Origin: an uncultured Pedobacter sp.
Lineage (GTDB): Bacteria; Bacteroidota; Bacteroidia; Sphingobacteriales; Sphingobacteriaceae
DNA length: 64,000 nucleotides
Direction: 5' to 3'
Assembly (NCBI RefSeq): GCF_913776295.1
Contig: NZ_CAJYOJ010000043.1
Location: 62,001-126,000 of the forward strand
Of this stretch, positions 4,235 through 9,088 are shown piece after piece. The notes beneath the pieces were generated by a model. It was not told where the DNA came from. It searched no databases and saw only the letters and a program-made list of their open reading frames with translations. Every line of letters starts with the position of its first letter. Within the stretch, counting starts at the first letter, position 1. Both the position numbers and the translations under genes were made by a program.

Positions 4235-5311
4235 TTAGCAATTCACCACTTGTGCATTGTTAATGGATATCTGCTGGGCAATTTTACTGGCAATATCTCC
4301 AAATACAACATCCAATAGCGGGTTTTGATTTAAGGCTACGGGTTTCCCTTTGTCACCAGCTTCGGCAATACTTTGGATAATAGGAATCTCACCCAAAAAC
4401 GGCACATCAAAGCGTGCTGCAAGTTCGGTACCGCCACCTTTTCCAAAGATATAGTATTTATTGTCTGGCAATTCGGCAGGCGTAAAATACGACATGTTCT
4501 CTATAACACCCAAAATCGGGATATTCATTCCCGGCATTCTGAACATCGCCAAACCTTTGTGCGTATCAGCCAGTGCAACCTGTTGCGGTGTAGTAACCAC
4601 AACCGCTCCCGAAATGGGGAAACTTTGCGTAATGGTAATATGAATATCGCCCGTTCCCGGTGGAAGATCCACAATCAGGTAATCCAGTTCTCCCCAGCTG
4701 GTATCGTTAAACAACTGTTTTACGGCATTCGATGCCATCGGCCCACGCCAGGGTACAGGTTGGCCGGGATCTGCAAAAAAACCTAAAGACAATAATTTAA
4801 TGCCATACTTTTCGATCGGTAAAATTTTGGTCTTTCCATCAGCTGTCTCTTCAGCACCCGGTTTCGCATCGACAAGATCAAACATGGTTGGTACCGACGG
4901 ACCGTAAATATCAGCATCAATAAGACCAACTTTAGCACCATCTTTAGCCAATACAACCGCCAGATTGCTCGCTACTGTAGATTTACCAACTCCTCCTTTG
5001 CCAGATGAAACCAAAATAATGTTTTTGATGTTATCTAACGATGATGAATTGCTGGGCTGAGTAACCCTCGACGTTACATTGATCATTACCTCTGCTGTGG
5101 CCGACACAAAATGCTTGATGGCATTGGTACAGGCATTTTTCAGCATTTCCTTCATCGGACATGCCGGGGTGGTAAGCTCTAATGTAAAATTGACCTGGTT
5201 ATCTGTTATCTGTAAATCTTTAATCATGTTTAAAGTCACCAGGTCTTTCTTAAGATCGGGATCTTCAACATTTTTAAGCGCATCTAAAACTTGTTGCGGG
5301 CTAATCTGCAT
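4235..5311 (-). CDS. mrp: Mrp/ApbC-type Fe-S cluster carrier ATPase
   Basis: A 358-residue P-loop ATPase of the Mrp/NBP35 group that holds and delivers Fe-S clusters in the cytoplasm. Residues about 5-85 are a MIP18/DUF59 domain (ALKNVEDPDLKKDLVTLNMI, with Cys51 and Cys61). The deviant Walker A GKGGVGKS is at 104-111, followed by LIDADIYGPSVPTMF and DYLIVDLPPGTGD. The CxxC that usually bridges the cluster is absent: where many homologues read CPxC the protein has YFTPAELPDNKYYIFG. I believe that is common in Bacteroidota but cannot check. It is transcribed with the downstream NifU gene and away from the divergent glycosyltransferase gene. Confidence 0.93.
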   Translation of the reverse strand: MQISPQQVLDALKNVEDPDLKKDLVTLNMIKDLQITDNQVNFTLELTTPACPMKEMLKNACTNAIKHFVSATAEVMINVTSRVTQPSNSSSLDNIKNIILVSSGKGGVGKSTVASNLAVVLAKDGAKVGLIDADIYGPSVPTMFDLVDAKPGAEETADGKTKILPIEKYGIKLLSLGFFADPGQPVPWRGPMASNAVKQLFNDTSWGELDYLIVDLPPGTGDIHITITQSFPISGAVVVTTPQQVALADTHKGLAMFRMPGMNIPILGVIENMSYFTPAELPDNKYYIFGKGGGTELAARFDVPFLGEIPIIQSIAEAGDKGKPVALNQNPLLDVVFGDIASKIAQQISINNAQVVNC

Positions 5312-5442: not shown

Positions 5443-7608
5443 ATGCAAATACCAAAAATTAAGATCCCCAAAAAATATTTAAAAATCGGTGCCTGGTTTT
5501 TCGGTGTATTTTTTGTTGTTTGTATTGCTTTTGGTGCCGTAGCCTACAGCAAAAGGGAAGCGCTTCTTAAAAAGATGGTGGCCAAAGCAATCGCCAAGGC
5601 CGATAAGGATTACAATTTGGAAGTTAAAATCGGATCAGCAGATTTTGCCGGGTTCAGCACCGTTAAAATGACTCATATTTCTGTTGTTCCTAAGGAACGT
5701 GATACCCTTTCAAACATTAATGAATTGAGTGTTAGTGTTAAACTGTTGCCTTTAATATTTGGTAATGTAAAACTTTCGGAAATAAAACTTAAAGAAGGAT
5801 ATGTAAGTGTCGTGCTAAAAGATTCGACCACCAATATTGATTTTATCTTAAAACGGAAGAAAAAAGACAGCATTCAGACCAATCAAAAAGCAAACTTATC
5901 AGAGATCGCCAGCAACATTCTAAATCAGGTATTATACAAAATCCCTGATGATATGGATGTGAAGAATATGGTTTTTAAGCTAAATGATCATGATACGGCC
6001 AAACTAAGTTTTGCAACCACTGCCACAATTGACGGAGGAGATCTGAAATCAACCATTGATGTGAACAATAACGAATCTACCTGGCATATTAACGGTTATG
6101 TTGATCCGGGGAGTAAAAAGTTAAACTTTTTAGCCTATGCTGATGGGAAAAAGCTGGAATTGCCTTATCTCAACAATAAATTACACGCCAGGCTTAGTTT
6201 CGATACCTTGCAAACCGAATTAAAAAATGCCAAGTACAGTGGCGATGATTATAAGATATCCGGCTCCTGGTCGGTTAAAAACATGTTGATCAACCAGCCT
6301 CGTATTGCATCAAATGATATTATTGTACAAAGTGCAAAACTGGACGCTGATATCTTAGTCGGCCCGAACTATATTGCCTTGGACAGCACCTCTACAGCCT
6401 ATTTGAAAAATGCAGAGATCCACCCGTTTGTTAAATATACTTTAGGAAAAAATAAAATATATGAATTAAAGCTCAATGCCGAAGAACAGGACGCACAGGC
6501 CGTTTTGGATGCATTTCCACAAGGCTTGTTTGAATCGCTGGAAGGATTGAAAGTACAAGGCAAGGTTAAATACAGCCTTAACTTTTACCTGGATACCAAG
6601 GTACCCGATAGTGTACGCTTCAACTCCACCCTCACACCGGTCAATTTCAAAATTTTACAGTGGGGCAAAACCAACCTGCAAAAAATTAACAATACCTTTG
6701 TTTATACGCCCTATGAATATGGCAAACCGATGCGCGATATTACTATTGGTCCGTCGAATCCGAATTTTACACCCTTATCGGCCATTTCAAAGAATTTTAT
6801 CAATGCTGTTTTAACGGCAGAAGATCCTTCTTTTTTTACCCACAATGGTTTTGTAGAAGAATCGATCCGCAAATCCATTGCTGTAAATTTTAAGGAAAAG
6901 AAATTTAAGCGCGGTGGCAGTACCATCAGCATGCAGCTGGTCAAAAATGTGTATTTAAGCCGGCAGAAAACTCTGGCTCGTAAAGCCGAAGAAATTTTGA
7001 TTGTTTGGCTAATCGAGCATAATCACCTCATCAGTAAACAGCGGATGTTGGAGGTATACTTCAACATTATGGAACTGGGACAAAACATTTATGGAATAGG
7101 GGAAGCTTCAAGATACTATTTTGGAAAACAACCCTCAGATTTAACCATTGGGGAAGGACTATTTCTCGCCAGCATTGTACCTAAACCAAAAGCCTCCATG
7201 TATAAATTTATGGCCGATGGCAGCCTGAAACCTTACATGTTCAATTATTTCAGGTTTATGGGCAATATTATGGCCAGAAAAGGTTTAACCCCTGGCGATA
7301 CCTCAGGTTATGGCTTTTATAATGTTCGCCTCCGGGAAGGGCTACGTCGTTATTTAGCTCCAGACACGGCCGTGGTTGATACCTCTGCGTTTGACGATGA
7401 TGGAGATGGATTACCGGTTGTAATCGTACACGACAAAAATAAAAGCTTCTTCGAACGCCTTTTCGGTGGCAGTTCGAAAAAAGATACGACAACCAACAAA
7501 CAGATGACCGCGCCAACAGATACTACCAAAACCAAAAAGCAATTAAGGCAGGAGCGAAGAGAAGAACGGAGACGCCAGAAGGAAATGGAGAAAAACCAGG
7601 AGCAATAG
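5443..7608 (+). CDS. AsmA-like protein with C-terminal GT51 peptidoglycan glycosyltransferase domain
   Basis: A 721-residue protein anchored by one N-terminal membrane helix (about residues 14-34). Residues about 40-430 resemble an AsmA/DUF-type beta-rich periplasmic region. Residues about 435-610 are a peptidoglycan glycosyltransferase (GT51): EDPSFFTHNG with the catalytic Glu, RGGSTISMQLVKN, and KAEEILIVWLIEHNHLISKQ then YFNIMELGQNIYGIGEASRY. This would polymerise lipid II glycan strands. No transpeptidase domain follows; the tail (about 660-721) is charged, low-complexity and Lys/Arg/Glu-rich. Ordinary monofunctional enzymes are about 230 residues, so the large upstream region is the odd part. 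The exact start among nearby codons is uncertain; the ATG at 5443 puts the helix at the right distance. Confidence 0.88.
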   Translation: MQIPKIKIPKKYLKIGAWFFGVFFVVCIAFGAVAYSKREALLKKMVAKAIAKADKDYNLEVKIGSADFAGFSTVKMTHISVVPKERDTLSNINELSVSVKLLPLIFGNVKLSEIKLKEGYVSVVLKDSTTNIDFILKRKKKDSIQTNQKANLSEIASNILNQVLYKIPDDMDVKNMVFKLNDHDTAKLSFATTATIDGGDLKSTIDVNNNESTWHINGYVDPGSKKLNFLAYADGKKLELPYLNNKLHARLSFDTLQTELKNAKYSGDDYKISGSWSVKNMLINQPRIASNDIIVQSAKLDADILVGPNYIALDSTSTAYLKNAEIHPFVKYTLGKNKIYELKLNAEEQDAQAVLDAFPQGLFESLEGLKVQGKVKYSLNFYLDTKVPDSVRFNSTLTPVNFKILQWGKTNLQKINNTFVYTPYEYGKPMRDITIGPSNPNFTPLSAISKNFINAVLTAEDPSFFTHNGFVEESIRKSIAVNFKEKKFKRGGSTISMQLVKNVYLSRQKTLARKAEEILIVWLIEHNHLISKQRMLEVYFNIMELGQNIYGIGEASRYYFGKQPSDLTIGEGLFLASIVPKPKASMYKFMADGSLKPYMFNYFRFMGNIMARKGLTPGDTSGYGFYNVRLREGLRRYLAPDTAVVDTSAFDDDGDGLPVVIVHDKNKSFFERLFGGSSKKDTTTNKQMTAPTDTTKTKKQLRQERREERRRQKEMEKNQEQ

Positions 7609-7830: not shown

Positions 7831-8373
7831 ATGCACAAAATAAAAGTAGAGGATAAAGAGTTCGAGATTTTTTTAGAAAATGATACCTTAAACAAAAGGG
7901 TCCGTTTATTGGGTATCCAAATGAATGTAGATTATGAGGATAAATGCCCCTTATTTATAGGCGTGCTAAATGGTAGCTTCCTGTTTATGGCTGATCTGAT
8001 CAAAGAAATCCATGTACCTTGCGAGGTTGCTTTTATGCGTGTAGCTTCTTACGAGGGAACAGCAAGTTCGGGAAATGTAAAAGAACTGATCGGCTTGCCT
8101 GACAATCTGGAAGGTCGGGATATTGTTATTGTGGAAGATATTGTTGATACAGGTTTAACCCTAACGCATATTTTGAAAACGATCAAAGAAAAAAATCCAG
8201 CTTCAGTTAAAGTAGCTTCTCTTTTACTCAAACCCAGTGCTTTAAAACATGAAATTAAAGCATTAGAATACGTTGGCTTTGAAATACCTAATGAGTTTGT
8301 GGTAGGTTATGGCCTGGATTATAATGGACTTGGCAGAAACCTAACTGATATTTACAGAGCAACAGGCACATAA
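7831..8373 (+). CDS. hpt: Hypoxanthine phosphoribosyltransferase
   Basis: Purine salvage enzyme that makes IMP (and usually GMP) from hypoxanthine or guanine and PRPP in the cytoplasm. The PRPP-binding loop VEDIVDTGLTL is at residues 101-111, the early strand IGVLNGSFLF at 43-52 carries the PPi loop, and VGYGLDYNGLGRNL near the C-terminus is the family's metal/base-binding segment. The 180-residue length is typical. It lies 55 bp upstream of the phosphatidylserine decarboxylase gene on the same strand and may share its transcript, although the two functions are unrelated. Confidence 0.94.
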   Translation: MHKIKVEDKEFEIFLENDTLNKRVRLLGIQMNVDYEDKCPLFIGVLNGSFLFMADLIKEIHVPCEVAFMRVASYEGTASSGNVKELIGLPDNLEGRDIVIVEDIVDTGLTLTHILKTIKEKNPASVKVASLLLKPSALKHEIKALEYVGFEIPNEFVVGYGLDYNGLGRNLTDIYRATGT

Positions 8374-8428: not shown

Positions 8429-9088
8429 ATGACCATACATAAAGAAGGCTACACCACTATTGCCTTAAGCATCTTGTTTATCTTTGTAATCAATGCCATA
8501 GTTGATTATAAATACCATGACATTACCTGGTTGCGCTGGTTCATCTATATCTTTTCGGCGGCATTATTCATTATTGTACTGCAGTTTTTCCGAAACCCGA
8601 GCCGCAGTTTTTCTTCAGGAGATAACCTGGTAATCTGTCCGGCAGATGGTAAAGTTGTGGTAATCGAAGAAACCGAAGAGGGTGAATATTTTAAAGATAA
8701 ACGTTTACAGGTTTCGATTTTCATGTCGCCTGTTAATGTGCACATAAACCGTAACCCTATTTCAGGCGTAGTGAAATTCTTCAAATACCATCCGGGAAAA
8801 TACCTTGCTGCCTGGAATCCAAAATCTTCTACCGAAAATGAGCGTACGACCACCGTTGTTGAACATAAAAATGGTACGCCCGTATTGTTCCGTCAAATTG
8901 CAGGTGCTTTGGCCCGCAGAATTGTATGGTACGTTAAAGAAGGCGATCAGGTGGTACAAACCGAGCAATTCGGCTTTATCAAATTCGGATCGAGGGTAGA
9001 TATATTTCTTCCGTTAGGCACCAAAGTTAACGTAGAACTTAACCAGGTTGTAAAAGGAGGGATCACTACCCTGGCGACTTTAAGTTAA
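8429..9088 (+). CDS. psd: Phosphatidylserine decarboxylase proenzyme
   Basis: Makes phosphatidylethanolamine from phosphatidylserine at the inner membrane. This is the short (219-residue) form found in Bacteroidota. Two membrane segments lie at about residues 9-25 and 35-53; CPADGKVVVIEE (70-81) and MSPVNVHINRNPISG (99-113) are family motifs. The self-cleavage site that produces the pyruvoyl cofactor is Gly187-Ser188 in FIKFGSRVDIFLP, replacing the LGST of E. coli. A strong hairpin terminator follows 20 bp after the stop. Confidence 0.93.
   Translation: MTIHKEGYTTIALSILFIFVINAIVDYKYHDITWLRWFIYIFSAALFIIVLQFFRNPSRSFSSGDNLVICPADGKVVVIEETEEGEYFKDKRLQVSIFMSPVNVHINRNPISGVVKFFKYHPGKYLAAWNPKSSTENERTTTVVEHKNGTPVLFRQIAGALARRIVWYVKEGDQVVQTEQFGFIKFGSRVDIFLPLGTKVNVELNQVVKGGITTLATLS

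Follow-up and report, generated by a model that had tools for sequence, protein, structure and literature searches.

The window, a 64,000-nucleotide stretch of DNA from an uncultured Pedobacter sp., carries an intact open reading frame for a 721-amino-acid protein whose closest named relatives are found in Pedobacter. We describe this gene as a fusion of an AsmA-like module to a GT51 peptidoglycan glycosyltransferase. Its parts and the neighbouring genes are given below in coordinates of the window; here and throughout, named loci are the best 80 matches in named genomes.

4235..5311, − strand: Mrp/NUBPL-type P-loop ATPase, divergent; the nearest upstream gene in 67 of the best 80 named loci
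5443..7608, + strand: the whole fusion gene, 721 residues plus stop, open from ATG to stop
5470..5550, + strand: N-terminal membrane-anchor helix, residues 10-36, predicted from a model helix and the hydrophobicity of the sequence
5551..6705, + strand: AsmA-like beta-groove module, residues 37-421, with about 16 long strands, predicted from profiles, models and fold matches
6706..6750, + strand: short junction into GT51, residues 422-436, from sequence and model
6751..7362, + strand: GT51 peptidoglycan glycosyltransferase domain, about residues 437-640 (Pfam match 437-585)
6820..6822, + strand: Glu460, the Glu of the ED..F..H motif, the same in 46 of 46 and 14 of 14 aligned rows
6913..6924, + strand: GGST motif, residues 491-494
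6991..6993, + strand: Glu517, the second conserved Glu, the same in 46 of 46 and 14 of 14 aligned rows
7366..7605, + strand: C-terminal tail, residues 642-721, modelled with low confidence at 642-696 and as a charged helix at 698-720
7831..8373, + strand: phosphoribosyltransferase (hpt-like), the next gene in 46 of the best 80 named loci
8429..9088, + strand: phosphatidylserine decarboxylase (psd), the second gene in 40 of the best 80 named loci

The order of these parts, in which an N-terminal membrane helix is followed by the AsmA-like module, the GT51 domain and the tail, is confirmed, and the AlphaFold2 model of the whole protein, calculated from 46 sequences, has a pLDDT of 80.3. Basic residues precede the membrane helix, and no cleavage site after it is evident by eye. 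The tail is partly disordered and basic, and a Pfam scan of the 721 residues finds no transpeptidase family. Databases would presumably name such a protein a transglycosylase-domain protein.

Residues 437-585 score 148 bits against the Pfam family Transgly (PF00912; E 2.4e-43, cut-off 27). The best NCBIfam match of the protein is the MtgA model TIGR02070, at 142.2 bits, below the cut-off of 182.65. When PDB sequences are searched, the matches are confined to the GT51 part. The predicted structure of this part has a clear GT51 fold: it is paired with 3nb6 by Foldseek (E 1.7e-8) and with 3nb7 by VIA (Z 17.8, 175 residues aligned, 2.8 Å). Invariant in all 46 rows of one alignment (A2) and all 14 rows of another (A1) are E460, D461, F464, R490, G491, S493 and Q498, as well as N502, R513, K514, E517, E537, Y539, N541 and G546. 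Elsewhere T494 is replaced by G in 1 of the 46 A2 rows and K501 by R in 2, H467 becomes N in 8 A2 rows and 1 of the 14 A1 rows, and G492 becomes A in 9 and 6 rows, respectively; among these changes, G to A, T to G and K to R fall in the A2 columns at the GGST motif. A regular expression written for that motif missed 9 of 81 proteins, four of which have the motif with K replaced by R or I by V; the remaining five escaped a second expression too, and A2 includes seven of the nine. We take Glu460 to be the catalytic residue and Glu517 the second Glu, with GGST/GAST, K..N and RK as the motifs of the family, an assignment that follows general knowledge of GT51 enzymes, aided by alignment to Aquifex PBP1A. 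With its key residues intact, the domain looks active.

Both halves of the protein have been held under constraint. Six pairs were tried for dN/dS, and dS was uncomputable for at least one half in four of them; the two usable pairs (L041 and L051) give 0.026 and 0.037 for the module and 0.006 and 0.010 for GT51, the L041 module, with a dS of 2.8, being near saturation. Strong purifying selection acts on module and GT51 alike. In a tree of 25 GT51 domains, from which L014 was omitted owing to motif variation, the 15 fusions cluster together (support 96/98), MtgA stands in a group of its own (99/97), and the two groups lie on a common fork (91/90, under a midpoint root that serves for drawing only). 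A single origin of the fusion fits these data.

The middle module is less easily named. Residues 37-421 are beta-rich in the AlphaFold2 models, and Pfam returns a sub-threshold DUF748 match at residues 9-160 (E 3.1e-5; 22.6 bits against a cut-off of 50). Of six other family members scanned, five have a weak DUF748 or AsmA match below cut-off and one, L037, has neither; the best scores reached by family members are 30.9 bits for DUF748 in L017 (cut-off 50) and 22.3 bits for AsmA in L038 (cut-off 29.8). Among NCBIfam models, the N-terminal part weakly matches those for Leptospira LIC_11026 and GspN (T2SS_GspN_Lepto: E 4.1e-5; 23.2 bits against a cut-off of 50). Because the scores lie below the cut-offs, the fusion is no member of the AsmA, DUF748 or TamB families as Pfam draws them; what fold it has is a separate question.

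A profile of the module (A3; residues 37-421, 388 positions, built from 14 diverse members) also matches other open reading frames, which among the matches listed are mostly of 1500-1790, 1030-1060 or 815-860 amino acids, at E values of about 1e-13 to 1e-6. We identified such frames in the fusion's own genome, where the long match is TamB (PF04357, E 4e-66), with A3 aligned at residues 132-236, right after the membrane helix, and the short match is an AsmA-family protein (PF05170, E 8.8e-16), with A3 at residues 72-154, again after the membrane helix. HHalign comparison of A3 with seven AsmA proteins gives a probability of 92.9 (E 3.8e-7) over 98 columns. The sequence similarity to AsmA and TamB spans about the first 100 of the module's 385 residues. 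Run against PDB sequences, the module profile found nothing useful, the best match (E 1.4e-4) covering a 19-residue stretch.

For the remainder of the module the evidence is structural. Modelled alone, residues 34-432 reach a pLDDT of 84.4 and a pTM of 0.73. Only two PDB entries are matched by Foldseek at E ≤ 0.001, LPD-3 (4.6e-5) and TamB 9xdc (4.7e-4), and the third match is TamB 9xdd (1.8e-2); the TM-scores of these top three are low, 0.26 at best. Among the VIA matches listed, the lowest rmsd at Z ≥ 8 belongs to an N-terminal fragment of Vps13 (Z 8.1, 140 residues aligned, 4.4 Å), but the best rows are outer-membrane barrels, at Z 9.1 with an rmsd of 9.0 Å. With barrels scoring as high as the lipid-transfer proteins or higher, VIA cannot tell grooves from barrels. 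We have put aside the outer-membrane barrels as common curved-sheet matches with large rmsd, and we count this as a weakness. Hydrophobic alternation over the 16 strands is 2.32, against 1.39 +/- 0.25 in shuffled sequences (the largest of 3000 shuffles reached 2.41); strand by strand, p falls to about 0.05 or below in only 5 of the 16. The Foldseek matches and the alternation would fit a beta-taco groove with a hydrophobic interior; in VIA, outer-membrane barrels do as well. Taken as a whole the evidence makes the middle module AsmA-like, firmly so over its first hundred residues, where sequence speaks for it, and by predicted fold only over the rest. The original prediction, of an active-looking GT51 domain behind an AsmA-like module and with no transpeptidase after it, was borne out, with a module of about 385 residues and conserved key residues; a fold unrelated to AsmA had been named as its refutation, and structure prediction and Foldseek did not refute an AsmA-like fold.

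The models also hint at how the two domains meet. In 9 of the 32 GT51 matches listed in VIA, the alignment extends back to model residues 300-355 and starts at target residues 41-80, a part of the GT51 structures that we take to be the membrane helix or its immediate surroundings. We read this as no more than a suggestion that the far end of the predicted groove sits at the membrane-facing side of GT51.

The fusion's own genome contains seven GT51 loci, the fusion gene included, and its MtgA is 242 amino acids long. A single-sequence search at E ≤ 10 turned up no further copy of residues 1-430 there. One of the genome's frames, L006 (contig C22, 1315-3111, − strand), encodes 599 amino acids, with about 386 residues that have no Pfam match before GT51; its GT51 falls among the fusions in the tree, on a long branch that the tree program places with uncertainty, and L006 is possibly a diverged second fusion of the same kind. 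Another, L007 (contig C12, 733-2043, + strand; 437 amino acids), opens with about 256 residues that no Pfam family matches, followed by an incomplete GT51 match (24-135 of 178), and is a very long branch in the GT51 tree. On contig C45 (L149, 454-7000), a TamB-like frame of 1752 amino acids overlaps at its end the start of a POTRA-bearing frame, much as PMC12045153 describes for TamB2-TamL2. Contig C26 (L150, 4285-7504) has MtgA and an AsmA-family gene side by side in convergent orientation, and so has L151; the pairing is absent at the other five AsmA loci (L152-L156), and we rejected it as general evidence.

Our survey covered genomes of the phylum Bacteroidota and the best 80 matches in named genomes, which are mainly Pedobacter and Mucilaginibacter, and also Parapedobacter, Olivibacter, Spirosoma, Larkinella and others. 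The fusion protein is matched at E ≤ 1e-10 in 294 of 296 genomes of the phylum; among the matches listed, 34 extend well into the N-terminal part and the others match through the GT51 part. In a census of 395 phylum genomes with A3, 42 have the module almost in full (388 positions), in frames of 650-798 amino acids, and four more have a partial match (646-684 amino acids), for a total of 46 of 395; the GT51 motif lies in the same frame at 30 of 30 loci checked among the 42. Within the fusion's own family, 120 of the 121 genomes each have a single match to the module profile at E ≤ 1e-20, in frames of 518-798 amino acids. The single genome without a match is 60% complete, and the match is present in all 111 genomes of good quality, including a 99%-complete genome of 1.7 Mb. 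A chance fusion is excluded by this conservation. Beyond the family the distribution is patchy, with the module in 3 of 61 relatives of G137 and in 1 of 2 genomes of the family of G005. At two loci, L021 (G222) and L022 (G218), the match to the fusion crosses one TAA, and the open frames, of 662 and 694 amino acids, keep the GT51 motif.

The usual picture of a peptidoglycan polymerase is of an enzyme that hugs the membrane and draws lipid II directly out of the bilayer. We propose, with a probability of about 0.4, that in the fusion the groove acts as a stalk on the inner membrane, shielding the tails of lipids, most probably of lipid II, and feeding GT51. Computation supports the domain order, the AsmA-like relationship of the module, the intact GT51 residues, purifying selection on both halves, the single GT51 group and family-wide conservation; the working of the groove is our inference. 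The protein would be an inner-membrane-anchored, monofunctional peptidoglycan polymerase with an AsmA-like repeating beta-groove between helix and enzyme. The groove, of about 16 strands, would form a short stalk, on the order of 8 nm if the strands stack at 4.8 Å, and its hydrophobic inner face would open at the inner membrane and end at GT51. Such a groove could shield polyprenyl tails, most likely those carried by lipid II and by the lipid-linked glycan as it grows, so that the GT51 would be fed while off the membrane, nearer the sacculus. Since the fusion lacks a transpeptidase, partner transpeptidases would presumably cross-link the new strand.

Several properties of AsmA-like proteins bear on this proposal. 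Their architecture has been described as an inner-membrane helix of about 22 amino acids, a chorein-N region and beta-taco domains (PMC8593681). The groove of TamB is reported to bind the tails of lipids, and each of the three lipids included in simulations moved into it from the membrane (PMC12800296); the AsmA-like GspN is reported to be needed for surface transport of lipoproteins (PMC12802150). By analogy with the TamB simulations and the role of GspN, AsmA-like grooves may not be restricted to phospholipids. Counting against the proposal, a GTase without its membrane anchor has been reported to be severely affected (PMC4632607). A further step, in which lipid II and the lipid-linked glycan would travel along the groove to an off-membrane GT51 and strands would be polymerised away from the membrane, AsmA-like grooves then serving polyprenyl lipids as well as phospholipids, seems to us somewhat unlikely.

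The main rival, somewhat less probable, is that the module handles no lipid, and is a spacer or a docking arm on an enzyme that takes lipid II from the membrane as usual; it might set the height of GT51 or recruit it to a partner, be it other wall synthases, TamL/TamB or an outer-membrane lipoprotein. Non-catalytic domains are reported in most class A and B PBPs, some of them for protein contacts (PMC4632607). The segment between the catalytic Glu and GGST, beside the active site, resembles that of MtgA, with a mean KD of -0.40 in 75 fusions and -0.60 in 5 MtgA proteins, and is less hydrophobic than in 3 PBP-type proteins (+0.19); an MtgA-like segment agrees with a spacer or docking arm and is neutral on whether GT51 leaves the membrane. 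The modest strand-by-strand alternation (5 of 16) is likewise what a lipid-free module might show. An arm of this sort, however, would have little need to keep an AsmA kind of fold with an overall alternation above nearly all shuffles, and the purifying selection on the module is stronger than a plain spacer needs.

We consider it unlikely that the groove moves phospholipids and that GT51 ties this transport to glycan synthesis, keeping outer-membrane supply and wall growth in step. AsmA-like proteins have been linked to phospholipid transport (PMC8593681, PMC10900882), and the psd gene, second downstream at 40 of the best 80 named loci, would suit such a coupling. A recount by tblastn among the same 80 loci finds Mrp at 69, hpt at 47 and psd, within 4 kb downstream, at 41; where hpt is the next gene (46 loci), its gap from the fusion gene is -10 to 149 bp. 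But psd is already missing at the Mucilaginibacter and Parapedobacter loci, and among the best 80 it is in no locus labelled Spirosoma, Larkinella, Fibrisoma or Cytophagaceae either; the hpt/psd pair as a whole is missing at those labelled Mucilaginibacter, Spirosoma, Larkinella, Fibrisoma and Cytophagaceae. Among 17 regions from other genomes (20 were fetched, and L164, L175 and L180 were dropped for having no fusion frame under the motif and frame filter), Mrp and hpt are kept only in G002, of the fusion's own family, and the regions from other families mostly have unrelated neighbours. With the link local to part of the lineage, we rejected the conserved neighbourhood as proof of function.

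The second genomic point in favor of phospholipid coupling comes from one distant genome (G005), in which genes for MlaE, an ABC ATPase, MlaD and a TPR protein lie 77 bp after the fusion gene on the same strand (L178, 10135-13739). One further genome of that family was searched and gave no fusion match at E ≤ 1e-20, and as a general association the Mla link was set aside, L178 being a single case. The psd and Mla neighbours are hints of a lipid link, not proof. The build of the protein also speaks against this explanation: the short module leads into an enzyme instead of an outer-membrane contact, and the periplasmic part of PA2708, a protein of 361 amino acids, has been judged likely too short to span the periplasm (PMC10900882). 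Of the original prediction, then, the AsmA-like/GT51 architecture stands, as a real fusion that is a conserved family gene (120 of 121 genomes by module profile) rather than the oddity of one genome; the coupling of glycan synthesis to envelope lipid traffic, with psd patchy and the Mla set found in one genome, is unlikely, and the spacer, its other suggestion, stays fairly probable.

It is very improbable that the GT51 is inactive as a polymerase and acts as a sensor or scaffold, or that the fusion is a relic: the genome does have six other GT51 loci, but the key residues are conserved, dN/dS in the domain is 0.006 and 0.010, and the family keeps one match in 120 of 121 genomes, the 99%-complete 1.7 Mb genome among them.

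We return to a lipid-shielding stalk as the preferred reading, and to how the protein compares with known systems. Among the open-licence papers that our searches listed, none describes an AsmA-like/GT51 fusion. Seven AsmA-like proteins are reported from Flavobacterium johnsoniae in a study whose main text contains neither 'transglycosylase' nor 'glycosyltransferase' (PMC12045153), and one of the seven may be a fusion of this kind. A conserved polymerase with a groove module allows a direct test of whether lipid-linked wall precursors enter AsmA-like grooves, and gives an AsmA-like module a readable enzymatic output; it also allows a physical link between wall growth and outer-membrane lipid supply to be tested in Bacteroidota.

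Like MtgA and other monofunctional GT51 enzymes (TIGR02070, PF00912), the fusion has one membrane helix, a GT51 domain and no transpeptidase, whereas MtgA has no long module between helix and enzyme, where the fusion has about 385 extra residues; the fusion also falls below the TIGR02070 cut-off and forms its own group in the GT51 tree. Class A PBPs carry a transpeptidase after GT51, where the fusion has a tail (642-721) of low model confidence and one helix. With AsmA, TamB, YhdP and YdbH it shares an N-terminal membrane helix followed by a predicted beta-groove, the start of its module, a chorein-N-like region, matching TamB and AsmA by profile; it differs from these proteins in having a module of about 385 residues only, in the enzyme domain at its end and in scores below the Pfam cut-offs. 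LPD-3, Vps13 and Atg2, the bridge-like lipid-transfer proteins that the module appears to resemble at the level of fold, are far larger, and bridge organelle membranes (in part from PMC8593681). GspN of type II secretion is likewise a short inner-membrane AsmA-like module with a special task, although that task is the surface transport of lipoproteins, and no enzyme domain is mentioned for GspN (PMC12802150). Both parts of the fusion are of kinds already known; what appears to be new is their combination, conserved across a family.
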